Shown: positions 3,484 through 18,523 of the stretch, in pieces
How positions within the stretch are numbered: position 1 is the first letter of the stretch
Layout of the letters: every line of letters starts with the position of its first letter
Made by a program: the position numbers and the translations under genes
Source: a virus
Virus record (IMG/VR): IMGVR_UViG_3300037342_000014
Location: 1 to 20,999 of that record
Direction: 5' to 3' (one strand)
Length of the DNA: 20,999 nt
The notes under the pieces: generated by a model
Seen by the model: only the letters and a program-made list of their open reading frames with translations
Databases searched by the model: none
What the model was told of the DNA's origin: nothing

Positions 3484-4332
3484 CTAAAGTGATTTTTCAA
3501 ATGAAGCTGTTAAGTAAACCTCTGTACCGAAACTGCTTGGGTATCCTTGTCCGTCTACCTGAGATGTTGTCACTTCATACTGAACACTTAAAGCAGACGT
3601 TGAGGCTAGAGTGAATTGTCCTATGATCTGAGAAGGAGCTCCTCCGGCGATGTATACATCTGTCCCGTTTAAAAGAATAGCGCTTCCTGTAACATTATAT
3701 AACCTAGTCTGATTACCGGCTGATCCACCATAGAAAGGTAATGTTATGTTTACGCGATATGTTCCCGCTGGTAAAACAATTTGATTAGCGGCTGTGCAAG
3801 TAGCTACAGGAGTCGCGTTTGCTGTACAGAGGCTCGCTATGCTTGCCGTATCATTATCTTTGGTATTCATTACCGCTACCAGCCATGATCCTGATGTAGT
3901 ATCACCACCTTTAGTTCCAGATGTTTGTGTATTAGTTACCTTCACATAGGGACTGTTTAATGGTCCAGAAAAGCTTGTTGCTCTAACTGTACCTACAACA
4001 TCAAGAGCTTGACCAGGGGTTGCTGATCCTATTCCAACATTTCCCGCTATATAATTAATCGTACTCCCACTTTGGTTCCAGTTGGATGTGGCGCTGATTG
4101 GCGTACCGTTAACTTGATACGTCCCTGAAATATTCACGTTTCCAGTAACAGCAACGGGAACGCCAACCGCAACACTTGTTCCCACAGAATCGCTTATATC
4201 GCTATCTTGTGACGTTGAAGAAACTCCCGACGATGAGCTTGTTGCGGTTACAGCCACTTTTCCCGCCGTCAAATATGCCCATGAGTAACCATTTAACATT
4301 AAAGATAAAATTATTAAAAAAATTACTCTCAT
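3484..4332 (-). CDS. Secreted fibre-like protein with Sec signal peptide, inserted between nozzle parts
   Basis: The first 19 residues form a classical signal peptide (Met-Arg, then FLIILSLMLNGYSWA) with likely cleavage after Ala19. A Ser/Thr-rich stretch follows. Residues ~95-120 carry GNVGIGSATPGQALDVVG and TVRATSFSG, a motif common in bacterial and phage fibre/adhesin proteins. The C-terminal ~120 residues (IVLPAGTYRVNITLPF, ending YLTASFEKSL) look like a beta jelly-roll of C1q/TNF type. An AGGGGG ribosome site sits upstream. Its location between the nozzle halves suggests a tail fibre or receptor-binding role, but the signal peptide argues for export across the inner membrane. Either a secreted envelope protein or a virion fibre is possible. 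Confidence 0.7.
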   Translation of the reverse strand: MRVIFLIILSLMLNGYSWAYLTAGKVAVTATSSSSGVSSTSQDSDISDSVGTSVAVGVPVAVTGNVNISGTYQVNGTPISATSNWNQSGSTINYIAGNVGIGSATPGQALDVVGTVRATSFSGPLNSPYVKVTNTQTSGTKGGDTTSGSWLVAVMNTKDNDTASIASLCTANATPVATCTAANQIVLPAGTYRVNITLPFYGGSAGNQTRLYNVTGSAILLNGTDVYIAGGAPSQIIGQFTLASTSALSVQYEVTTSQVDGQGYPSSFGTEVYLTASFEKSL

Positions 4333-4344
4333 TTAATCCCCCTT

Positions 4345-6171
4345 TTAATCAGTCATTACTTCGCCTGAACTGTCAAACATAAGATTGCCAGCGTCGTCGT
4401 ACATTGCATTGTTAGGCACAACTTCCGTTGTCATTGCTGTGATATTCAATGTATCATTGTACGTCAAAGAAGCGTCAAGTCTAACAGGTTCCCAATAATT
4501 ATTGAAAAGCTCATCGGTGAAAACTTCTACCCAATAAACTTCTACTCCGTTAATCTTCCTTTGGCAAACACACCAAATCTGATCGTCTGCGCCGTCAATA
4601 GGAATAATGTCGAGGCTTACAAATGTCCCTGCTAATCCCCCAGGGATAACTCCATCAGATTGACCTGCTACTATCCTTGACCATCCCTCTACTTGCTGAT
4701 CGGGGTCACGGGTGAATACCGCAATCTGTCCATCCCCACGAACGACCCAAATACGGTCGTAAGGTGATACTTGGGAAGCCATCTGAACCGCGCCACTTCC
4801 ATCCCTCAAAATATGATCCGCTAAAACCATCATGTTTGTGGCTTTGTATTTGCTTGTAATCAAATCGTACGTTAATTGCCTGATCGTAAATGTGTTTGCT
4901 TGAATATAAAATAAATACCCGCCAAGCATGACTGGAGGCTGATACATGACCCCATAGTTATTGTCAAAGGTTATGTTAGGCGGTGTCGTTGGTGAAATCC
5001 CAACAGCAGGGCTTCCATCAGCCGCCGTTATGCTTCCCCCGGATGTTCCTATTTCCAAAGCTGTATCAGATGCCAGCCATCTTCCAGTATTCGCTTGACT
5101 TGCGGCTATCTGATACTGATAAGCGTCTGAATCTGTAGTCGTCCCCGATGAAAAATCATCATACGTGTCAACCGTTGACCCATACAAAGTTTGTCCCATA
5201 AGATAAACCAAACGCCCTTCATGGAACACAACAGCCGAAGGGAATCCCCTATAAGTTGAGAAAGCTCCCTCTGCCCAGAATGTTACGCCGCTCGTTGTCC
5301 CTAGATTTCCAGCCGTGCCATTAGGCTCTGCCTGTACAGTTCCGGTAACGTGCGTACTATCTGTAAATGCAGTTATTTTGACTACCCCGCTATTGGCGAC
5401 ACTCCCATCCGTACCGACCTGCCATAAGCTTCCAACATGGCCAGCATTAAAGATAGCCGTTGACGCGGTTAATGTGGTAGTTCCAGTAGCTGATGACGGC
5501 GTGATCGTTGTTGCTGAAACATTCAAAGGTCTAAAAGGGCCACGCACAAAAGGAACATTGGCTATGTTAAAGGCCGTGGCTGATGTGCGGCTAAGTTTCT
5601 GCGGGAAGTAGTTGGTATTGACCATGTACATAACATCCGCATTTTGCGCTGTCATGATATTAAAAATATCCGCTTGAAGGAATATTGTTGGAATCTCTAA
5701 AATACTTTGCGCTACCCAATCACCAGCGGCCAAGTCTGTCGCAAAAGTTCCTGACGTATGAGCTATGAGGCAATAATAAATAATTGCCGATTGAGTGACG
5801 TAGTTTCCAGGGACATAGGATGTTGATGTTTGCCATGCTGTAGCGGAAGGCACAACAACCTGACCGGGTACGCCATTAAAGTTTGAAAAGAACCTCATAT
5901 AGAGATTACCGATTTCCAGCATATAGGCTTGTGTTACTGAGTAAGTAAATTTACGAAGACATGACGGATAGGTAGTAGAAAACTTTGTGGGAGCAACATA
6001 TTGAGTACCTGGACGATTGGCGACAGAGCAAGCTTGGCCGATAAGCATATTCTCGATGATTGCCGCCCCGGACTTATAAATAGGTTTGGTGTCTTCACAC
6101 CTTCCTAAACTACGGGGACTTATTTCCCCTAAACTCCAATTTGAATGAAGTAAAGTACCTTTATAGCCCAT
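4345..6171 (-). CDS. Tail nozzle / tail tubular protein B (T7 gp12-like), N-terminal part, 608 aa
   Basis: The N-terminus has the family pattern 'NWSLGEISPRSLGR.D...Y.sGa..IeNm.....G...rRPGtqyVa' at residues ~11-60, then FTYSVTQAYMLEIG at ~75-88, 'aqNADVMYMV' near 180 and VPFVRGPF near 210. These are nozzle landmarks. Residues 112-156 are an inserted module shared with the adaptor gene. Family similarity continues to about residue 580 (VRLDASLTYNDTLNITAMT) and then stops; the last ~25 residues are an unrelated tail with a repeated [YF]D[DS][AS]G[NE][LV]M unit. The missing C-terminal domain is found in the cistron at 2785-3477. Only one base separates this ATG from the stop of the HNH gene, and no Shine-Dalgarno site is visible. 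Confidence 0.85.
   Translation of the reverse strand: MGYKGTLLHSNWSLGEISPRSLGRCEDTKPIYKSGAAIIENMLIGQACSVANRPGTQYVAPTKFSTTYPSCLRKFTYSVTQAYMLEIGNLYMRFFSNFNGVPGQVVVPSATAWQTSTSYVPGNYVTQSAIIYYCLIAHTSGTFATDLAAGDWVAQSILEIPTIFLQADIFNIMTAQNADVMYMVNTNYFPQKLSRTSATAFNIANVPFVRGPFRPLNVSATTITPSSATGTTTLTASTAIFNAGHVGSLWQVGTDGSVANSGVVKITAFTDSTHVTGTVQAEPNGTAGNLGTTSGVTFWAEGAFSTYRGFPSAVVFHEGRLVYLMGQTLYGSTVDTYDDFSSGTTTDSDAYQYQIAASQANTGRWLASDTALEIGTSGGSITAADGSPAVGISPTTPPNITFDNNYGVMYQPPVMLGGYLFYIQANTFTIRQLTYDLITSKYKATNMMVLADHILRDGSGAVQMASQVSPYDRIWVVRGDGQIAVFTRDPDQQVEGWSRIVAGQSDGVIPGGLAGTFVSLDIIPIDGADDQIWCVCQRKINGVEVYWVEVFTDELFNNYWEPVRLDASLTYNDTLNITAMTTEVVPNNAMYDDAGNLMFDSSGEVMTD
5704..5838 (-). repeat. 45-aa duplicated module, copy in nozzle gene
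   Basis: Residues 112-156 of the nozzle protein (AWQTSTSYVPGNYV to FATDLAAGDWVAQS) match residues 76-120 of the adaptor protein at 28 of 45 positions by eye, with no gap. The pattern W..st.Y..G.yV......Y.C...HtsG.FaTDLa.GdW resembles small carbohydrate-binding-like modules seen as insertions in phage virion proteins. Confidence 0.85.
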
Positions 6172-6172
6172 A

Positions 6173-6739
6173 TTATTTTACATACCTATTTATATTTTCT
6201 TTAAACTGTTTTCTGTTCATCGTCGGTAAAGATAAGTTACATTTCATACACAACATACCAAAATCACATGATAACCATATCTTTTCATTATCTGGTGTTC
6301 TTGGATGATCTCTTAACCAAGTATGTGGGCCACCTTTTATAATTTCTGTCCCCCCATGTCTATGGTCAAAGCAAATAGCAAGTGATGGATTTTTTCTGTT
6401 AAAGAAAATATCCTTACCACACATCTGACAAGATGTTGTTAATGGAATTAATCCCTCCCAAGATTTTAAACAGTTGTTCCTATTCTTATTTCTTGATATT
6501 TTTTCTGCGTCAGGATTATTTAACTTCCAATTTTTAGCCCTATCAATGTATTCCTGTTTATTTTTTTCATAATGCCGTTTTGAAAGCAAGAAAACTTTCT
6601 CTTTAAATCCTGGTCTTAATTTTTGAATCTCGCGACCACGCTTATTGTAAATCTTAATCCTATCGGGATATTTGTTACGATAATCCTGAAGATACTTCTT
6701 GTGATATTCCCTTCTCTTTTCCAAGTCTTTAAATGGCAT
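6173..6739 (-). CDS. Free-standing HNH homing endonuclease, endonuclease VII-like, 188 aa
   Basis: The first ~95 residues are very basic with repeated KY, NKYPD and KRHYEKN-type units, likely DNA-binding. The catalytic part has C104-x2-C107, then ICFDHRHGG (D125, H126, H128) and FGMLCMKCN (C164, C167, N168), the zinc and His-Me-finger arrangement of the recombination endonuclease VII family. I chose the ATG at 6739, which overlaps the adaptor's stop as TAATG and has a GGGGGG run five bases upstream; a start 27 bases further upstream is open but lies inside the adaptor. The gene sits exactly between adaptor and nozzle genes, typical of an intergenic homing endonuclease. All visible catalytic residues are present, so it may be active. 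Confidence 0.85.
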   Translation of the reverse strand: MPFKDLEKRREYHKKYLQDYRNKYPDRIKIYNKRGREIQKLRPGFKEKVFLLSKRHYEKNKQEYIDRAKNWKLNNPDAEKISRNKNRNNCLKSWEGLIPLTTSCQMCGKDIFFNRKNPSLAICFDHRHGGTEIIKGGPHTWLRDHPRTPDNEKIWLSCDFGMLCMKCNLSLPTMNRKQFKENINRYVK

Positions 6740-7599
6740 TAGAACCCCCCACCAGGAATCCACCACCCAATATTATTATTATCATTTCCAACGCCAACCG
6801 CACCTGTCGCTCCTGATAGTCTTGAACAAAACCATTCATCGGCAACGGCCTGATCTGGACTTGTCGTATTTGAATCTGCGGCAATCGCTGAAATTAACTT
6901 GGCTTGATAATCTTTCTCAAGACCTGCCGCGTACTGTGCCGCTTCTGAAATCTTGAAACACAACTGATATGCCAGTTTAGTTGCCAACGCCTCTAAAGCC
7001 TTTGAGCTGAACTGTGTCAAATCCTGTTGAAGAAAAACATACTTCATTGCAGGGATATTGTTATTGTTTGTAATCATACACTCCGTCGCTGTTGTAAGGT
7101 ACGGAGGTTTGATAAATTCTTTTCGGTAAAAAGCTGGCGCACCGAATAAATAAACACTAACAAAATCCGCTGGAAGATTGTATGGGTTATTACAACCATC
7201 ATTCATTACTGGCAATGGAAGTAATAGCGGAGCCACACCAGTCTGCAAAGTCCAATCACCATTGGCAAGATCAGTGGCAAACACTCCAGAGGTATGTTGA
7301 ATGGCGCAAACATAGATTGACCCTCCTTGCAGTACATACATCCCCACGTTGTAAAGCGTTGATGTAACCCATGCCGAAGGGTTAAGCGGGATCAAAGGCA
7401 CAGTTTGAACCGCAAACGACCAGGGATGTTCTTCCAGAAACTCTTGAATCTCAAAAGGCCAAATATCTGTTAAATATAATGCCGCAGGATTTCCTGACGT
7501 AGAAGGGCTAGAAATATCACTGGCAACAAGACGAGCAGCGCCAATCTTGTACATTGCTTTATTGAATAGGACTAGCTGTGTAAAGAGCGCGTTTGCCAT
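6739..7599 (-). CDS. Tail adaptor / tail tubular protein A (T7 gp11-like), 286 aa
   Basis: The N-terminus (FNKAMYKIGAARLVASD) and 'W.FEIQEFLEEHPWSFA' near residues 47-63 match the gp11-type adaptor that joins portal to nozzle. NPYNLPADFVSVY and a helical C-terminal part with SSKALEALATKLAYQLCFKI at about 190-210 also fit. T7 gp11 is 196 aa; the extra length comes mainly from the 45-residue module at 76-120 and a Gly/Asn-rich tail ending GWWIPGGGF. I placed the start at the ATG at 7599 (MANALF), preceded by AAGGTGG five bases upstream, rather than the ATG three codons earlier. It overlaps the end of the membrane-protein gene by 28 bases. Confidence 0.82.
   Translation of the reverse strand: MANALFTQLVLFNKAMYKIGAARLVASDISSPSTSGNPAALYLTDIWPFEIQEFLEEHPWSFAVQTVPLIPLNPSAWVTSTLYNVGMYVLQGGSIYVCAIQHTSGVFATDLANGDWTLQTGVAPLLLPLPVMNDGCNNPYNLPADFVSVYLFGAPAFYRKEFIKPPYLTTATECMITNNNNIPAMKYVFLQQDLTQFSSKALEALATKLAYQLCFKISEAAQYAAGLEKDYQAKLISAIAADSNTTSPDQAVADEWFCSRLSGATGAVGVGNDNNNIGWWIPGGGF
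7240..7374 (-). repeat. 45-aa duplicated module, copy in adaptor gene
   Basis: Residues 76-120 of the adaptor (AWVTSTLYNVGMYV to FATDLANGDWTLQT) are the partner of the nozzle module at 5704-5838. The flanking adaptor and nozzle sequences are not similar to each other, so the similarity is limited to this module. Confidence 0.85.
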
Positions 7600-8645
7600 A
7601 ATGACCACCTTGTATATGCGAGGAAAACAACCATTAAAGGAACCATGTTGATAAATCGATCAGGAGTGTGTACCATTGCGTCCAGAATGACCATGGTAAG
7701 TCCGGCAAGCTCTGCCCAAAGTTCTGCCTTGTACATCACCCAAGCAAGCCATCCAAGGCCAAAGGCCACGCAAGCTGTAAGAGGGTATCCAATTTCAAAA
7801 CAAAGCTGAATAAGGAAGTTATGAGCTGTTTTCCATTCCATGCAATGAAGTCCGGAAAGACCGAAGAATAAATCTTTATACGTTCCAATCCCCCAACCCT
7901 TCCAAGGGTGTTGATTAGCCAGGCGTATTGATTGTTCCCAAATCCCCATGCGTCCGCTTTCAGTGTTCATGTTCTCCATGATCTTGTGATCTGCTATTGC
8001 CCATCCTATAAATAAGACACAAAGAATCAATAATAATACCCCCGCCTTATTTTTGTTTCTATGTGAAAAATAAACCGCCGTACCAAACGAAGCGCAAAGA
8101 AAAGTCCATGTCGAATGAACGAATAAAGCCACTCCAAAAGAAAAGAATAAATTAAAAATACTAAACGGCAATAAGACTGCCCCAAGGATCGTCCCGAAGC
8201 TCGCCATCCACATGTGATATCCAATGGTCCCGTACTGCTCGATGTCGTGATGTCCGAAGTTTAAAACACCATCTTTGTGAAAATGCTGCATGACCATGAA
8301 TAAAATGTTTAGGAGTACGATTGCTTGAATCGCCTTAAAGACTATTGACCAATCTTCAATCTTTGAACAAATGATATAAAAATAACAACATCCGACGAGG
8401 GATACATACGAAGTAAAAGAAACATACGGGATAGCGCTAAAGAAGCAGTGAATGAATCCAACAATCGCAATGACACGCACAGGCCACGAAGTTTTAATAA
8501 ACAAAGTGAACACGCCTAAGAATCCGGCAATCACGATCATCCAAGGCCAGTAATGACTAGGAGGATTTTTTATTACAATATCGACTGATGGGATTAAAGC
8601 GAGAAGGGTAAATACAAGAATTGCAAAGTATGAATATATTTTCAT
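7572..8645 (-). CDS. O-antigen polymerase/ligase-like (Wzy/WaaL family) membrane protein, 357 aa
   Basis: About ten hydrophobic segments span the inner membrane. The long periplasmic loop after residue 218 carries the family signature: GRMGIWEQSIRL (R232, W236), then HPWKGWGIGTY (P247, G250, G252, G254), then AHNFLIQLCFEIG (H275, N276, E284). Wzy and WaaL proteins polymerise O-units or transfer them to lipid A-core; sequence alone does not separate the two. The length is near the family's lower range. It is placed between virion genes, overlapping the adaptor start, and has no clear ribosome site. In a phage such an enzyme would most plausibly alter the host surface polysaccharide and block further adsorption; that role is inference. 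Confidence 0.8.
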   Translation of the reverse strand: MKIYSYFAILVFTLLALIPSVDIVIKNPPSHYWPWMIVIAGFLGVFTLFIKTSWPVRVIAIVGFIHCFFSAIPYVSFTSYVSLVGCCYFYIICSKIEDWSIVFKAIQAIVLLNILFMVMQHFHKDGVLNFGHHDIEQYGTIGYHMWMASFGTILGAVLLPFSIFNLFFSFGVALFVHSTWTFLCASFGTAVYFSHRNKNKAGVLLLILCVLFIGWAIADHKIMENMNTESGRMGIWEQSIRLANQHPWKGWGIGTYKDLFFGLSGLHCMEWKTAHNFLIQLCFEIGYPLTACVAFGLGWLAWVMYKAELWAELAGLTMVILDAMVHTPDRFINMVPLMVVFLAYTRWSLWQTRSLHS

Positions 8646-8653
8646 ATCAGAAA

Positions 8654-8679
8654 GCAGGGGAATATTTCTACTCCCCCGC
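8654..8679 (-). terminator. Hairpin between secreted-protein gene and Wzy-like gene
   Basis: On the minus strand GCGGGGGA pairs with TCCCCTGC (8 bp with one G-U pair) around a 10-base loop. It is followed by TTTCTGAT, too weak a T run for a confident intrinsic terminator. It could be a leaky terminator or an mRNA-stabilising end. Confidence 0.45.
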
Positions 8680-8688
8680 CATTCCTTT

Positions 8689-9246
8689 TTACAATTTGTA
8701 ATTGATGGTTAATCCAGTACCGTATCCGCTCTGTTTAATCCATCCATTTGTATCATCAAGATAAACAAGAGTGACTGAATCTCCCTTTGCGGTGAACACA
8801 ATACTCTTTAAGGTGAGAGACGTGGTTGGAGTTAATGTATACGTTCCACTACCACCACCGGGAGCAAAACCTATTGCTGTGATGGTTAACATTTGGCCTG
8901 GCGTACCGTTAGCCAAATTACCAGCGGTAAAAGCAGCATTACCATCTGTGTCTAAAACTTTAAGCACATAGGTATAGCTCGGTGAAATCGTTGCACCTGT
9001 CGAAGCCAATGAAACATAACCCGCATTAGCAAAACCAGATTCTGCCAAGTTTGGATTACATCCGATGTTAAAAGTTGATCCATCCGGTGAAATATTTGTC
9101 CCTGTAGTATTTGCACCAGAATTACAGACCACGTTTATATCCGTTGCCTCTCCAGCTAAGATTCCGTTGACTTTAACACCAACAGACGCAAAGGCAGGAG
9201 CGGTCAAAGCCATTAAAGCTAAAACCATTAATAATTTCTTAAGCAT
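8689..9246 (-). CDS. Secreted beta-rich protein of unknown function, Sec signal peptide, 185 aa
   Basis: Residues 1-20 (MLKKLLMVLALMALTAPAFA) are a textbook Sec signal with Ala-x-Ala cleavage before SVGVKV. The mature part is Gly/Thr/Ser-rich and beta-predicted, with two Cys (CNSGANTTGTN and IGCNPN, about residues 41 and 58) that could form a disulfide in the periplasm. The C-terminal half (GQMLTITAIGF, GSGTYTLTPTTSLTLKS, VYLDDTNGWIKQSGYG) resembles beta proteins seen in phage head or tail accessory genes, which normally lack signal peptides. AAGGAG lies six bases before the ATG, implying strong translation. It is framed by hairpins at 8654-8679 and 9265-9300. Function is not recognised; export is well supported. 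Confidence 0.75.
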   Translation of the reverse strand: MLKKLLMVLALMALTAPAFASVGVKVNGILAGEATDINVVCNSGANTTGTNISPDGSTFNIGCNPNLAESGFANAGYVSLASTGATISPSYTYVLKVLDTDGNAAFTAGNLANGTPGQMLTITAIGFAPGGGSGTYTLTPTTSLTLKSIVFTAKGDSVTLVYLDDTNGWIKQSGYGTGLTINYKL

Positions 9247-9306: not shown

Positions 9307-9804
9307 TTAGTCCGTTGTATACTCGACGATTACACCGTAGATCGTACCTGTGCCGAGCGTTGCTCCGCCTGTGGTGATAACGATTTGAGCATCACCTTGG
9401 GTTAAGGAATTTGCGCCTGTACCAGGATTAGTACCGATAACGTACCAACCTGTGGTAGAGCTGATCATACCCGTATAGGTAGTGATCCCTGCCGTGGCTA
9501 TACCTGTACCAGCGCTAACATAGCGCGTGGCTGAGTTAAGATCACCAACGCTCCATGTTAATCCGGATGTTCCCGCGCTAGAAACAACTGACACGCTCAA
9601 CACCATGGCCCCCTGTGGAAGAGGGGCGCACATATTAAGCGTGGAGCCGGACAGCTCCGTGCCTAACCCAACATAATAATCCAACATGATCTTTTTCCGT
9701 CCATCCACATAACCGGCAGTCATCCAGTTGTATGTGGTGGTTGAAGTCACACCCGGAACTGGTGCGCTGCGTTCTGTATAAACTACTCCGTTATAAGCTG
9801 ACAT
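9307..9804 (-). CDS. Probable head decoration or minor head protein, 165 aa
   Basis: This gene lies directly after the capsid gene with GGGAG seven bases before its ATG. The protein is beta-rich, Gly/Thr/Ser-rich and lacks a signal peptide; the visible motifs are NWMTAGYVDGRKKIMLDYYVG, a central PLPQGAMVLSVSVVSSA and an end reading TIYGVIVEYTTD. Proteins of this size and composition next to the capsid are often head decoration or vertex proteins. I recognise no family signature, so the role is inferred from position and composition. Confidence 0.6.
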   Translation of the reverse strand: MSAYNGVVYTERSAPVPGVTSTTTYNWMTAGYVDGRKKIMLDYYVGLGTELSGSTLNMCAPLPQGAMVLSVSVVSSAGTSGLTWSVGDLNSATRYVSAGTGIATAGITTYTGMISSTTGWYVIGTNPGTGANSLTQGDAQIVITTGGATLGTGTIYGVIVEYTTD

Positions 9805-9839: not shown

Positions 9840-10718
9840 TTAGAACGCATTTTCAACACATGCGCACTGCACGATCCGAGCCTCCTCTAACCGTGTAGAA
9901 CCCATGCACATCTTGAGATACACTTGCCAGGCCATGTTCTTGTCGATGCGCTCATCAACGCGGCCTTCAATATCCTTCTGGATGGCAAGGATAGAAGCGT
10001 TCTTTTGCCAGAAATAATTTAACCGATGGCTAGAAGCGTCGGTCAAAAGACGTTCGCTATGTAACCATTGGAAACCGCACCATGTACGGACTTCACCTTG
10101 CACCAACGCATGAATCACGTTGTAATCGCTGGAAGTGACTTCTGTGGTGTTAAGCAAGTCTTCCAACTGTGCGGCGGTGTAAGCGGCAAAGCGTTCTGTG
10201 GCATCGACTTCACCAGCATCTAAGATACGTTTGGCAGCCAAGCACTTGGCTTTGCTCATACCGTTTCCGGTCGTGAACTGGTTATAAACAATTTGGTTTG
10301 CAGATGGGAACGTTACTGCTGTGGCCCCGGTCTGTCCTGTGTATGAAGTACCACCCCATGCAGCGATAATCAAATCATCCTTGGTGCGATTAGCGGCGGC
10401 ATGTTTGGCTTGCATCATAGCGGACTTGGGGTCCACGGCTTGCTGCAAAGCATCCTTAGGATCTTCCAAGGTGCTGGAAACGAAATAACGAGGCGTCACC
10501 ATCCGGTTTGCGAAGTTGGCCGGTTGGGTTGGTGTATCGGCAAAACGAGTGGTTAACTCAACCATCGAATCGGTTGCATACTGGGGATAAAATTTAGCAG
10601 CGCCTGTCCAGTTGAAATCTTCAACGATGGCTCCGGCGAAACGATTGTCAAGCTGTTGTGCTAAGAGATAGATAGCAGTATTGTACTGCTGTACATAAAT
10701 TGTGTTAGGGGCTCCCAC
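9840..10718 (-). CDS. Major capsid protein, 292 aa
   Basis: The order scaffold-capsid-decoration and the sequence both support this call. Residues ~30-75 (VEDFNWTGAAKFYPQYATDSMVELTTRFADTP) and the stretch NRMVTPRYFVSSTLED, DPKDALQQAVDPKSAMMQAK, RTKDDLIIAAWGG (about 70-121) follow the pattern of the ~300-residue podovirus capsid proteins, including the D.ii.A..G element and the 'SKAKCLAAKRILDAGEV' helix near 160-175. The start is GTG at 10718, eight bases after a strong AGGAGG. It has its own upstream promoter and a structured leader. HK97-like fold is expected for such capsids but not shown by sequence alone. Confidence 0.82.
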   Translation of the reverse strand: MGAPNTIYVQQYNTAIYLLAQQLDNRFAGAIVEDFNWTGAAKFYPQYATDSMVELTTRFADTPTQPANFANRMVTPRYFVSSTLEDPKDALQQAVDPKSAMMQAKHAAANRTKDDLIIAAWGGTSYTGQTGATAVTFPSANQIVYNQFTTGNGMSKAKCLAAKRILDAGEVDATERFAAYTAAQLEDLLNTTEVTSSDYNVIHALVQGEVRTWCGFQWLHSERLLTDASSHRLNYFWQKNASILAIQKDIEGRVDERIDKNMAWQVYLKMCMGSTRLEEARIVQCACVENAF

Positions 10719-12387: not shown

Positions 12388-12673
12388 TTGGATGCTCCTT
12401 TAAATACTTATCAATCCTTCTTTCTTGTTCTTGAATGGAAATATTAATCAAAGGCTTTACAGGGATATCTTCTTGTACCAAAAACATTCTCAACGCCTCT
12501 TTCCGTGAGTGTTCTTTTGCGTCATATAATACCGACCGAACATAGACACGTTCATTTATTCGGATATTCCCAAGCACTTGCCATGCTGGAAGAAATGATT
12601 GATTCCCGTCAAGCATAGGAAAAAATTCTCCAAACATTCTTTCATGGATAGCCAATTTCTCATATTCAAGCAT
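12380..12673 (-). CDS. Small phage protein of unknown function, 97 aa
   Basis: The frame is open for 21 codons further upstream inside the zinc-ribbon gene, but the ATG at 12673 (MLEYEKLAIHERMF) has AGGTGG four bases upstream and overlaps the previous stop by 8 bases, as its neighbours do, so I start it there. The protein is helical and charged at the C-terminus (INISIQEQERRIDKYLKEH). No family is recognised. Confidence 0.68.
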   Translation of the reverse strand: MLEYEKLAIHERMFGEFFPMLDGNQSFLPAWQVLGNIRINERVYVRSVLYDAKEHSRKEALRMFLVQEDIPVKPLINISIQEQERRIDKYLKEHPNA

Positions 12674-13472
12674 ACGCCACCTCAATCTTAGCCTTGCACT
12701 TTCCGCACAATCCCTCGTACTTCCCGCCAACATCAAAACAGCTTACTTCTTGACCGCAACCAACTGATGAGCATTTCTTAATCACTCGGCCTATGTCAAT
12801 ATCTTTCCCGCATGCCTCGCAAGTTCCTTTGAAATCTGTTCCTACCAAAGTCAATGCGTTTAAGGTACGGCAATCAGGACATGGGAGCATTTCTTCAACG
12901 GATTGGGTTTTCTTAATCACTTGGGATAATCGCTTGCTCTTTAACTGAACTTCATCAGGGGTAACAACCATGCGCTCTGGTGTTGGTGCTCTGTCGTCAA
13001 TGACCTCGAAGCCTTGGATGATCTTCTTAATTCCTTTGCCGTCCGGTGTGGGGATTGTCGGGCCTATGACTTTAAGCACTCGGTAATCCATGCCAACGAT
13101 CAGCGGGGAAACTGTGCCGGACTGGAACTCTCTTGGATTTAGTTTGATGAGGGTAACGATGTCCTCTTTGCAAATTACATTTGATAAATCTTCTTGTGCT
13201 TTTGGCTGTGGTCTATTAGTAAATGTGGCAATATGTTCTTTGGGTTTATCTGCCATTCCACCCATTACGACAATATCTTCAATTACTTCTGGCGGTGCTT
13301 CTGCAACTTGCGGCGCTATAGCGTTCAAGTCTTGATACAAAGCACTGATGGTCTTATCAGCCGGATATGGAATACGCTTGGTCTTGCCGTCATCAAACTT
13401 GACAACGAGGATGACTATTTGAGGTACTCCATCGTGGAATAGGCCGTCGTCTTCACAGAGCTGGATTTGCAT
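12666..13472 (-). CDS. Zinc-ribbon-tailed phage protein of unknown function, 268 aa
   Basis: The first ~190 residues include an N-terminal beta region (VPQIVILVVKFDDGKTKRI) and a beta-rich centre (LIVGMDYRVLKVIGPTI), with an acidic linker in between. The C-terminal 75 residues carry nine Cys: C198-x2-C201 and C218-x2-C221 form one zinc ribbon, and C234-x4-C239, C245 and C256-x2-C259 form a second. Such paired ribbons bind nucleic acid or protein partners. The ATG has GGGAG about ten bases upstream and the gene overlaps both neighbours. Its place between portal and scaffold suggests either a head-assembly helper or a late-expression factor; neither is demonstrated. Confidence 0.7.
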   Translation of the reverse strand: MQIQLCEDDGLFHDGVPQIVILVVKFDDGKTKRIPYPADKTISALYQDLNAIAPQVAEAPPEVIEDIVVMGGMADKPKEHIATFTNRPQPKAQEDLSNVICKEDIVTLIKLNPREFQSGTVSPLIVGMDYRVLKVIGPTIPTPDGKGIKKIIQGFEVIDDRAPTPERMVVTPDEVQLKSKRLSQVIKKTQSVEEMLPCPDCRTLNALTLVGTDFKGTCEACGKDIDIGRVIKKCSSVGCGQEVSCFDVGGKYEGLCGKCKAKIEVAYA

Positions 13473-14279: not shown

Positions 14280-15932
14280 TTACTTGGTTGCTAAAGCCTC
14301 TTTGTGTTGTTTATGAGCGCCAGCTGCCTTCTGCGCTGTGTCTGCCATTTGATTCTGCTGTTGCATCTTAGCCTGGGCTTGCATGGCTTCCGCGTTCTTC
14401 TTCCGGATTTCCTCTACCTTGCGCTTCTCACGGACAAAGGTTGGGTCAACATTTAAGAAGTCGGCACTTCCCGCGATAATGCGATCACCGTCAACATTGT
14501 CTTTAGCGTCAGGTATGATACCGTTAATTGCGCCCACGATCTGTAACCAAGTGGTAAGGCCTCCAAGAGCGGCAGCACGTTGGGCTTTGGCGAGAGGGGA
14601 CATAAATATAACACCAATGTCCATCTTGTTATTCTTGTCAACTAACTCCCTTGGAGGTGGTGGAAAGACCCCACGGCTGTTTATAATGTCGAAAGCTCTG
14701 AGCTGTGATTGGCCTATCTTCTTGGTCATACGACCAACAACGGGACCAACAAGTTCGAGAGCTTCTGTTATGCGTTGATTAACTTCGGGATTGTTCATGT
14801 CCTTTGATACGTTGGACATGGCTTTAAATAGGTTCAGGAAGAAGCCGCGATCAATTAATTCTTGCTCCATCTGCATCATTTCAACAGATAGCTTGGGGTC
14901 ATTGCCTGTTGGTATCTGAAAATAATCTTCTTTGGTATATTTGGTCTTGTCGTAATAATTCATGGCGTCAGGGTTTTGGGAGAAGCGTCCTAGCCAGAAA
15001 CGTGCCGGCATGGCCGCGGCGCCACCGGCGGCCTTCATAGCAAACTTTAAATTGGTTTTCTTCTGTGCGTTGGCGAGCTTGATTGAAGACAGGACATCCA
15101 TTGCAGGGCTGTAAGCCATGTCATCCCCGGATTGAATCCAGAACTCAAGCACGGCATAAAGATTGGTATTGTATCCCTTCTCATCAAACTTGTGCGCTTC
15201 TTCGGGGTAATACCAGACAGACCTAAATGGCATGTTTACTGAATCTTTCTTTGAAGCGTCCCTAACGTCACGGGGCCCAACGTAATGCTCAATGTCAAAC
15301 AGTTCGAAATACTTATCAGCATCAAGCGCTTCTTTGACGTTCTTGGGGATTGCATTAGGCCATCGCTCTTTGATTTGGATAGCGGTGTACTTGAACCTGC
15401 GGAATAGACCAACGACCTCCCCGCGGTAATCACGCTCATAGCTGCATTGCTGAACTGGTATTGAGGTGTATCTTACGTGATCGCGCCAATCTTCTTCCGT
15501 GGCAATAGGAGCAGAACCGGCCCAAAGATCATCGGTGTACGCTTCCAAGATTGTTTCATTCCAATTTGAGGCATTGTTTATATCGGTCTGAATGTCAGAA
15601 CATTCTTTGAAGTAACGCTGTACGTTTCCGCTCTGGTTCTTCTTAGGGTCAATCGCGGAGAACCCAAGCCACTTATTTACTGAACTGGTAAGCTTGGAAT
15701 GGAATCCTGCGGCAGATTCCCTTAATGCAAGTCTTGCCCGTGAATCGAAAAGGTAAGCGTCATTGAGGCGCATGTCTTCTGTTTTTATGGTGGTAATCCA
15801 TGCTTTGGAAGGGATGCAAAAATTTGCGACATCTTGCAAGTAAGAATAGCGGTTGCCATCCTTGCCTTTGAGATAGATGCTTTTGGCTACTAAGTTTTTA
15901 ATGTCTGTATTTGTGCTTACAATAGGGGGCAT
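14280..15932 (-). CDS. Portal / head-to-tail connector (T7 gp8-like), 550 aa
   Basis: Length is close to T7 gp8 (536 aa). The N-terminal ~95 residues (YLQDVANFCIPSK, then LFDSRARLALRESAAGFHSKL and NKWLGFSAID) show the conserved connector pattern in which the first helices are followed by 'a..lAs.l.s.Ltsp...WF'. Further family elements include SYERDYRGEVVGLFRRFKYTA near 170-190, RSVWYYPEEAHK, and MMQMEQELIDRGFFLNLF plus NQRITEALELVGPVVGRMTKK at ~350-415. The last ~45 residues are a Gln/Ala/Lys-rich tail. Dodecameric portals sit at one head vertex, where they bind terminase during packaging and the adaptor afterwards. Confidence 0.9.
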   Translation of the reverse strand: MPPIVSTNTDIKNLVAKSIYLKGKDGNRYSYLQDVANFCIPSKAWITTIKTEDMRLNDAYLFDSRARLALRESAAGFHSKLTSSVNKWLGFSAIDPKKNQSGNVQRYFKECSDIQTDINNASNWNETILEAYTDDLWAGSAPIATEEDWRDHVRYTSIPVQQCSYERDYRGEVVGLFRRFKYTAIQIKERWPNAIPKNVKEALDADKYFELFDIEHYVGPRDVRDASKKDSVNMPFRSVWYYPEEAHKFDEKGYNTNLYAVLEFWIQSGDDMAYSPAMDVLSSIKLANAQKKTNLKFAMKAAGGAAAMPARFWLGRFSQNPDAMNYYDKTKYTKEDYFQIPTGNDPKLSVEMMQMEQELIDRGFFLNLFKAMSNVSKDMNNPEVNQRITEALELVGPVVGRMTKKIGQSQLRAFDIINSRGVFPPPPRELVDKNNKMDIGVIFMSPLAKAQRAAALGGLTTWLQIVGAINGIIPDAKDNVDGDRIIAGSADFLNVDPTFVREKRKVEEIRKKNAEAMQAQAKMQQQNQMADTAQKAAGAHKQHKEALATK

Positions 15933-16951: not shown

Positions 16952-18523
16952 TTAATCTCCGTATTGTTGTAGGTTGCTGACGTCCTCTTGGCCTGTGCCG
17001 CGCGTGTTGCTGAAATTGTCATCTGCGACTCTTTGCATCTGTTGGCTTACTGGCGCATAAACCAACTCTTTAAAGTTTTGTTCAAATGCCCATTGTAACA
17101 TTTTCCAACAATCCGCTCTACCTGGACTTCTTGGCGGATCTAATTTTTCTTTGATATCTTTTTTTTCAATAAGCTGAATTTGACCAGACTTATTCTCAAA
17201 CCATTCGTCTGCTTCAAGTTCTTCGCATAGATAATCGTCTTTGATGTTAGCCGCCGCTGCTCCTTTAATCCCACGCTCACGAGCAATAAAAGCCGCCTCT
17301 GCCCGTTTGTTAGCGTAGATGCGTTTCTTTTCTTTTCCTGGGCCAGCATCGGTTGTATCAAAAGCCGCACTTGAACCATGAAACTTAATAATCTGAATAC
17401 CAGACAAATATTGTTCAGAAAACTTTGAAAGCTCTTGCCATACACCAATACCAATGCCATCACAATCAACTATAATGAAGTTTCCAGAACAAGCCTTGCA
17501 CATCTCAACGGCTTTGATCGCTGCGACACTTGGCGCAATTGTGGCTGTTGTGTACACATCCGTAACCTCCCCACCCGATCCAGCCATAAATACATTATCA
17601 TCCATTCCTTCACCTGCGCTGTCAACTGCCACCCCCCTATTAAAAGAAAACCTTGCTAAGAACCCATGGCGCTCTTGCATCTTAGACATAACATCAGGAC
17701 CAAATAACTTATTTATTGATTGATTAGGGACCTGTCCTAGCACACGACTGACCCAACGCGGATCACCTTCTCCCCACCTTAAACGCTTGTCTTCTACCCA
17801 TTCATAGGTAACAAGTCCAGGGATTATGATTGAACGGCTCTTGACATTTGGGCTATCCAAGCAACTAAAATGAAACACAATGTTATTCTTTCGGTCTTTC
17901 AACCCCTTGGCGAATCGGCCATCCGTGCGCGTGGGATTACCCATAAACACGATTAAGACATTCTCTCCCGTTGCAATGCCGTCAATTTGATCGTAAATGT
18001 TATCCTCAACGCTTTGGGCTTCGGTGACTAAGATACACTGATTAAAGGCTGATCTGATTCCCTGGAACTTGCCGCCACCGCTTCCGGCGCTTTCTTTTGT
18101 GGTAAATCCTATTAAAAACCACTCACCCTTTCTCATTTCAATATACGGCTCATTTAAAGGATTTCCCTGCTTGATCTTCTTACCATTGTATCGGGTCATT
18201 GTTTCTGCCCACATGATGTACTTGACTTGGCGATCTGTTGGTGCGGTAAGAACCACCTTTGATGGTATGCACGTATCAAGAAACCAGTTAGCTATACAAC
18301 CACCCAGAAAGTCTTTGCCTAATGAATGGCCGGAAGCTATGTAAATAGGCTTGCGCTCTTTCATGGCTATTGGAATTGCATTTAGGACTTCTTCCTGGGG
18401 TTCTGTGATAGGGTAGGGAAGCTGTAGCTGTTCTTCAAGATAGCATTTAATATTCCCATGCCACCTCTTAGCAACCTTAGATGCGATTTCTGACAACTTT
18501 GATTTCTCTTGGCTTTTTTGCAT
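16952..18523 (-). CDS. Terminase large subunit, 523 aa
   Basis: The ATPase part shows a Walker A-like IASGHSLGKDF (residues ~62-72), a Walker B-like CILVTEAQSVED (~163-174, acid at E168) and the coupling element FMGNPTRTDGRF (~193-204). The nuclease part shows the RNase H-like acids in GVAVDSAGEGMDDN (D301) and IIVDCDGIGIG (D353), and a distal SPGRADCWKML element near 480. This motor cuts and pumps DNA into the head through the portal. The Walker A loop has Asp where Ser/Thr is usual. The ATG at 18523 overlaps the small-terminase gene by 47 bases without a clear ribosome site; a TTG nearer that gene's stop is an alternative start. Confidence 0.9.
   Translation of the reverse strand: MQKSQEKSKLSEIASKVAKRWHGNIKCYLEEQLQLPYPITEPQEEVLNAIPIAMKERKPIYIASGHSLGKDFLGGCIANWFLDTCIPSKVVLTAPTDRQVKYIMWAETMTRYNGKKIKQGNPLNEPYIEMRKGEWFLIGFTTKESAGSGGGKFQGIRSAFNQCILVTEAQSVEDNIYDQIDGIATGENVLIVFMGNPTRTDGRFAKGLKDRKNNIVFHFSCLDSPNVKSRSIIIPGLVTYEWVEDKRLRWGEGDPRWVSRVLGQVPNQSINKLFGPDVMSKMQERHGFLARFSFNRGVAVDSAGEGMDDNVFMAGSGGEVTDVYTTATIAPSVAAIKAVEMCKACSGNFIIVDCDGIGIGVWQELSKFSEQYLSGIQIIKFHGSSAAFDTTDAGPGKEKKRIYANKRAEAAFIARERGIKGAAAANIKDDYLCEELEADEWFENKSGQIQLIEKKDIKEKLDPPRSPGRADCWKMLQWAFEQNFKELVYAPVSQQMQRVADDNFSNTRGTGQEDVSNLQQYGD

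Follow-up and report, generated by a model that had tools for sequence, protein, structure and literature searches.

A gene for a membrane protein of the O-antigen ligase/polymerase (Wzy_C) family lies in the late operon of a virus, directly behind a gene for a predicted exported protein, and this pairing is near-constant across the phage loci that we compiled, including loci where the pair occupies other genomic sites. We consider this pair the strongest new fact of the analysis. Our preferred reading, to which we give an even chance, is that, late in infection, a periplasm-facing phage ligase transfers glycan from a lipid-linked host donor to an exported, fibre-like protein of the phage itself. 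The window, meaning the whole stretch of DNA that was analysed, is a 20,999-base IMG/VR virus record (IMGVR_UViG_3300037342_000014), a fragment; its relevant features are collected in Table 1.

The late operon is on the minus strand and reads, in order, portal, capsid, decoration-like ORF, exported protein, Wzy_C, tail tubular A, an endonuclease-like ORF, tail tubular B and fibre-like genes. The nearest named relatives of the capsid protein are Pelagibacter phages (best approximately 40% identity). The ORF following the capsid gene is probably decoration-like, as its position and conservation suggest; it has no family match in Pfam or PHROG. The original prediction, which placed the Wzy_C gene in a late virion operon between capsid and tail genes, is borne out in this respect, including the overlap with the tail-tube gene: the 3′ end of Wzy_C overlaps tail tubular A by 28 nt (ATG at 7599) or 37 nt (GTG at 7608), and relatives keep an overlap between the two genes. 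The direct upstream neighbor, in contrast, is not the capsid gene but that of the exported protein, which the decoration-like ORF and capsid gene precede.

Table 1. Features of the window, with positions counted from its first base and the basis for each assignment.
Feature	Position	Strand	Basis
Portal (head-tail connecting protein)	14280..15932	-	PF12236, E = 3.2e-80
Major capsid protein	9840..10718	-	PF19821, E = 1.4e-57
Putative decoration-like ORF between capsid and partner genes	9307..9804	-	position, conservation
Partner protein, predicted exported, 185 aa, with fibre-like beta C-terminal half	8689..9246	-	signal-peptide rule, homologue alignment, AlphaFold2/Foldseek
Strong RNA hairpin between partner and ligase genes, attenuator-like position	8649..8685	-	folding vs. 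shuffles
Wzy_C (O-antigen ligase/polymerase family) integral membrane protein, 357 aa	7572..8645	-	Pfam, PDB profile match, dN/dS
Catalytic-type stretch R232...W236...G250xG252...H275-N276-X9-G286	7788..7952	-	19-homologue alignment; hydropathy
Tail tubular protein A (T7 gp11-like)	6739..7608	-	phrog_394, E = 1.2e-20
Second protein with signal-peptide-like N-terminus, tail/fibre region	3484..4332	-	signal-peptide rule

Two other parts of the operon show signs of exchange or insertion. The ORF at 6173–6766, between tail tubular A and B, encodes 197 aa with a weak Endonuclease_7 match (E = 0.49); in the related contig L003 the two tail tubular genes abut with no ORF between them, so the ORF may be a recent homing-type insertion. 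Upstream of the portal gene, an ORF at 16952–18523 is terminase-like by position and is approximately 42% identical to its L003 counterpart, as compared with 98% for the capsid protein, which indicates mosaic exchange.

The Wzy_C reading frame is real and under purifying selection. Its dN/dS between the window and L003 is 0.083, compared to 0.061 for the portal, 0.079 for tail tubular A and 0.035–0.257 over the virion genes tested, and seven residues (R232, W236, G250, G252, H275, N276, and G286) are invariant in all 19 aligned phage homologues, at identities down to 12%. Constraint like that on the portal and tail tubular A, together with the invariant residues, argues that the gene is more than a chance ORF. 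GRMGIWEQ, HPWKGWGIG and AHNFLIQLCFEIG, the motifs to which the original prediction pointed, are all present in the product. By a simple hydropathy rule, the window protein has 9 hydrophobic segments and close homologues have 7–11, so the ten proposed earlier are a fair description; a GT-C-like fold would have about 10–12 membrane helices. The catalytic-type stretch falls in or beside the longest non-hydrophobic loop (by hydropathy, residues 224–276 approximately), and the loop with the conserved Arg and His-Asn probably faces the periplasm. An AlphaFold2 model of the enzyme based on a 5-row alignment had a mean pLDDT of 50.7 and was set aside; the 19-row alignment (A12) was made later.

Profile searches that could have placed the protein outside the O-antigen ligase/polymerase family instead upheld it. 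The window protein matches Pfam Wzy_C (PF04932) with E = 1.7e-8 and 34.8 bits against a cut-off of 31.7, and same-site homologues score 38.1, 46.5, and 42.6 bits. All five rows of the enzyme alignment (A5) match PF04932; among 10 more phage homologues, six pass its cut-off and four miss it. Neither a PHROG match nor an NCBIfam family above cut-off was found for the window protein. Its only convincing solved-structure relative is a ligase of the 7tpg type (E = 0.031 with the 5-row profile, 7.6e-5 with the 19-row profile), whose counterparts align with R232, H275, N276, and G286 of the phage rows. The PDB label of 7tpg is putative cell surface polysaccharide polymerase/ligase, and we take 7tpg and 7tpj to be the WaaL O-antigen ligase of Cupriavidus metallidurans; WaaL is chromosomally encoded with lipid A-core as its acceptor, in which the phage Wzy_C gene differs. 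By profile score and by its Arg and H[NSQ]-X9-G residues, the window protein is a member of the O-antigen ligase/polymerase superfamily.

Membership in this family leaves the acceptor to be decided on other grounds. In a profile comparison, PglL_A-bearing proteins ranked below several ordinary surface-polysaccharide ligases/polymerases and also below some exosortase-A-associated ligases. The family of the latter, the exosortase-A-associated putative O-glycosylation ligases (TIGR03097), has its cut-off reached by L066 and L068, with L067 just short; these three are the best gammaproteobacterial profile matches. The phage protein is far below that cut-off, and the homologue in phage L026 matches weakly (E = 0.023). 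The nearest cellular relatives examined sit in surface-polysaccharide clusters. PF04932 is common to PglL-type protein O-oligosaccharyltransferases and WaaL, which simple comparison cannot separate, according to the part of that source available to us (PMC3643930). Because of this shared domain and the profile ranking, family alone cannot settle the acceptor, and the gene pairing carries most weight.

The same gene is found at the same site in related phages, a check that the original prediction proposed: in L002, L003, and L004 (87% identity), L007 (partial, 75%), L008, L009, and L010 (48%), and L026 and L029 (38%). PF04932 was found in eight of 29 related viral records, among which L007 breaks off inside the gene and three others (L027, L028, and L030) stop short of it. 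Elsewhere, the portal gene directly follows the pair in L194 and L195 (in L194 a terminase end also lies farther upstream); the pair stands behind a phrog_371 capsid protein in L207 and L212, and behind a phrog_334 capsid protein in L224.

By rule, a Sec signal peptide is predicted for the immediate upstream neighbor of Wzy_C in 43 of the 46 cases that could be evaluated; on reading, the count is 45 of 46. The remaining ORFs on the same strand with a length of 100 aa or more give a background of 32 of 389 across these 47 loci (Fisher p = 3e-35, a value that is indicative since the rows are related). Two upstream ORFs, in L122 and L149, narrowly fail the rule and are positive on reading; the true exception is the first Wzy_C copy in L209, whose upstream gene lacks a signal peptide. 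The two L209 copies are approximately 3.6 kb apart, with a LamG-like exported neighbor beside the second and none beside the first. Bacterial Wzy_C genes, a small and noisy control, have a signal-peptide neighbor upstream in four of 14 cases.

The 47 are dereplicated phage loci. L209 holds two Wzy_C genes, and L196 (upstream ORF cut) and L229 (no upstream ORF) are not evaluable, which gives the 46 cases. We dropped near-identical copies (L002, L004, L008, L010, L029, L166, L200, L204, L206, L213, L225, L226, and L227) together with loci that were partial or empty (L007, L172, L211, and L223). Loci were gathered with capsid queries (80 viral loci) or Wzy_C queries (42 loci), never with the exported protein, and do not amount to a census of the Wzy_C genes in phages. 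For each ORF, whether case or control, the signal-peptide rule allows several ATG starts, so both rates are raised.

The capsid-scan and earlier loci together contain 61 intact capsid-to-tail-tube intervals (listed contig copies removed, near-copies kept). Forty of these have a signal-peptide ORF by rule and 20 have Wzy_C by the 5-row HMM; 19 have both. The lone Wzy_C interval failing the rule is that of L122, in which a clear signal peptide is seen when read. L152 and L153 were missed by the 5-row HMM yet are Wzy_C by Pfam, and the L166 product is identical to that of L152. At this home site we saw no ligase that lacked the exported protein, which for its part is often alone, as in L047 and L048. 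The named relatives T7, HTVC010P, Baldr, and ct3Et533 have neither gene between capsid and tail tube.

A slot behind the capsid gene that tolerates insertions or gives strong expression could bring the two genes together with no joint function, and both the other signal-peptide proteins in these phages and the frequent occurrence of the exported protein by itself would fit such positional hitch-hiking. We find it very improbable: the pair also travels together at other sites (L194, L195), signal peptides occur in just 32 of 389 ORFs other than the immediate neighbor, and the catalytic residues are invariant. An enzyme acting on LPS only would not be expected to keep this pairing at other sites, with diverse partners; a ligase that depends on an exported partner would.

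The partner in the window begins MLKKLLMVLALMALTAPAFA|SVGV, with a Sec signal peptide in residues 1–20 according to a home-made rule (not SignalP), on which the prediction of export is based. Homologues keep the signal peptide and a mature start like (A/S)VGV. An AlphaFold2 model of the mature protein has a mean pLDDT of 60.1 and is good in the C-terminal half only, with ten-residue blocks at 62–88 from residue 81 on. Searched with this moderate-to-low-confidence model, the best Foldseek match in the PDB was tailspike TSP4 of phage CBA120 (E = 1.9e-4, TM 0.40), and many of the matches in BFVD were to phage proteins, in some cases named tail fibres or tailspikes. On the strength of these matches, the partner looks like an exported fibre-like protein. 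Partner proteins are diverse in sequence while the ligase stays; their mean Ser + Thr content is 24% (31 proteins), a C-terminal motif that we searched for is present in eight of 31, and no common glycosylation sequon was seen among them.

Sec signal peptides also begin several other late-operon fibre-like proteins of up to 2120 aa, ligase-free genomes included: besides the second such protein in the window (3484–4332), examples are L003:11737–12555 and 12566–13054, L104:4411–5232, L031:9700–13161, L035:11326–16512, and L044:3900–10262. To judge from these predicted signals, exported fibre-like proteins seem to be a habit of this phage group.

Between the partner and ligase genes, the RNA hairpin has a folding energy of −22.4 kcal/mol (z = −5.18), and none of 200 shuffles was as stable. 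Hairpins occur at the matching place in L003, L009, and L026, as well as in ligase-free L047 and L048, and the position matches that of the T7 Tphi terminator after gene 10. By analogy, the hairpin would let the capsid, decoration-like and exported proteins be made in abundance and keep expression of the ligase and tail genes lower, an arrangement that may fit an enzyme with an abundant substrate.

The closest parallels that we considered are bacterial pilin pairs (PilO/TfpO with pilin; PglL with ComP), in which a Wzy_C enzyme likewise adjoins an exported-protein gene in the same direction. The His of an HN-X9-G motif is common to pilin O-oligosaccharyltransferases and the phage enzyme. As far as the accessible part of the source goes, a possible target-protein gene lies beside most PglL genes, and pilO adjoins its pilin gene in the same orientation; PilO, a pilin oligosaccharyltransferase, is also without PglL motifs (PMC3643930). 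Unlike PglL-type enzymes, the phage enzyme lacks PglL_A (PF15864) and Wzy_C_2 (PF11846): neither was detected at E ≤ 10 in the five phage members scanned, and both were detected in the Acinetobacter control L065. The partners differ as well, the bacterial one being a type IV pilin and the phage one a fibre-like candidate acceptor with a predicted Sec signal peptide in a virion operon. The absence of the PglL hallmarks, the lower scores of PglL_A proteins and the lack of a common sequon weigh against a protein acceptor.

L065 (CAKLQH020000003.1) was deposited as Acinetobacter phage MD-2021a and was the best named-phage hit. It was rejected as a phage relative and kept as an O-oligosaccharyltransferase control only, since it carries rpoZ, spoT, and gmk as well as a pilin and the PglL_A/Wzy_C_2 enzyme that goes with it; by these genes it seems to be a piece of bacterial chromosome submitted under a phage name.

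The original prediction favored host-surface remodelling, in which the enzyme would alter polymerisation or ligation of host O-antigen or capsule late in infection, thereby keeping progeny or rivals from re-adsorbing to the cell or debris; the exported protein might then assist, for example by masking a receptor. This is possible, and consistent with the Wzy_C family, with the surface-polysaccharide clusters around the nearest cellular relatives examined and with the late placement of the ligase gene behind the hairpin, but it is no longer the best reading and we judge it unlikely. Its precedent is phage D3, whose Wzy-beta is described, in the portion of the source available, as a Wzy_C phage protein that alters LPS, D3 infection leading to superinfection resistance (PMC4815439). 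According to the same portion, the D3-derived Wzy-beta has 10 membrane segments, and certain of its Arg and His residues are essential (PMC4815439).

The D3 and epsilon15 polymerases are also phage-encoded Wzy_C-type membrane enzymes (386 and 392 aa vs. 357 here), yet they differ from the window protein in sequence and setting. Comparison by hhalign gave a probability of approximately 0.2% for each, and they have PHROGs of their own whereas the window protein has none, so none is shared. Their genes lie in temperate phages, on the strand opposite to the virion genes and near an alpha-polymerase inhibitor; no such inhibitor is among the window gene's neighbors, which are the exported protein and tail tubular A. 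Moreover, an independent LPS enzyme would leave the near-constant exported protein upstream unexplained, unrelated sites included. For these reasons we rejected plain serotype conversion as first choice. The D3 O-antigen polymerase (L111:23421–24581) falls in PHROG 19842, whose label "polymerase" stands in the category DNA, RNA and nucleotide metabolism, apparently by misannotation.

The Wzy_C protein could also polymerise a host glycan into an extracellular matrix, a slime or a virion coat, with the exported protein as a non-covalent lectin, carrier or anchor. The profile closeness to polymerase/ligase types would suit this, as would the L209 partner, which reads by eye as a LamG/concanavalin lectin domain, and CBM5/12-like stretches in tail tubular A (6739–7608; E = 2.6e-4) and B (4345–6171; E = 1.2e-4), both below cut-off. 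Tail tubular B of L009 (L009:11983–15831) reads as several CBM5/12-like stretches with Ig-like and glycine-rich parts. Polymerases generally need no dedicated exported neighbor, which tells against a matrix, and in the window we saw no further gene for glycan synthesis next to the pair; we regard this reading as quite unlikely.

In one phylogenetic tree the phage rows form a single clade (99/99) whose sister group has no resolution; this tree omits L083 (no motif), L075, L079, L081, L084, L113, and D3. A tree with 19 phage rows, which omits L083, L075, L084, L113, D3, and epsilon15, gives three phage groups, with a single clade not rejected (p-AU 0.10). L094, taken as a bacterial row that joins a phage group, is a phage contig, identical over the match to viral contig L194, and its placement is thus no sign of a bacterial donor. 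A peptide scan of genome contigs returned no relative of the Wzy_C protein; in the class to which L047's genome belongs, 44 of 274 sampled genomes had distant homologues by profile search, as did 80 of 193 in the phylum of L048's genome. As to the host, a capsid-based search of MAGs gave one Methylococcaceae MAG, one Omnitrophica MAG and weaker others, with binning error possible.

Under the preferred reading, protein glycosylation by the phage ligase, the Wzy_C gene would be the enzyme half of a two-gene cassette in which the exported-protein gene comes first and the ligase gene next. The partner would be made late, beside the capsid proteins, and Sec would carry it into the periplasm. There the membrane-embedded Wzy_C protein, its active site toward the periplasm, would move undecaprenyl-diphosphate-linked host glycan onto the partner, much as PilO/TfpO and PglL act on pilins. 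The product would be the phage's own glycoprotein, fibre- or knob-like, and might coat the cell envelope, debris or released particles.

Tailed phages assemble in the cytoplasm, so Sec signal peptides on virion-operon proteins are unexpected. More tentatively, many uncultured tailed phages may carry a self-contained virion-operon glycosylation module: a Sec-exported fibre- or decoration-like protein and a Wzy_C oligosaccharyltransferase dedicated to it, for which the host supplies the lipid-linked glycan. The glycoprotein would be secreted before lysis and at lysis would lend a host-like sugar coat to the virions, by assembly outside the cytoplasm, or to the cell surface, hiding particles or blocking re-adsorption.

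We know of no phage-encoded periplasmic protein glycosylation; that proposed for a mycobacteriophage capsid, by glycosyltransferases of the phage, would be cytoplasmic. In the accessible parts of the literature on phage O-antigen ligases, oligosaccharyltransferases, signal peptides of structural proteins and virion glycosylation, we found no description of the exported-protein/Wzy_C pair. Within the same bounds, a Halomonas phage "O antigen ligase" has been called an auxiliary metabolic gene (PMC10305713), and phage glycosyltransferases have been suggested to glycosylate a mycobacteriophage capsid (PMC11256854). If our reading is true, the glycoprotein would be built outside the inner membrane, with a bearing on escape from debris, immune recognition of phages and superinfection exclusion, and the diverse ligase/acceptor pairs would be there to test and could be of use in glycoengineering.
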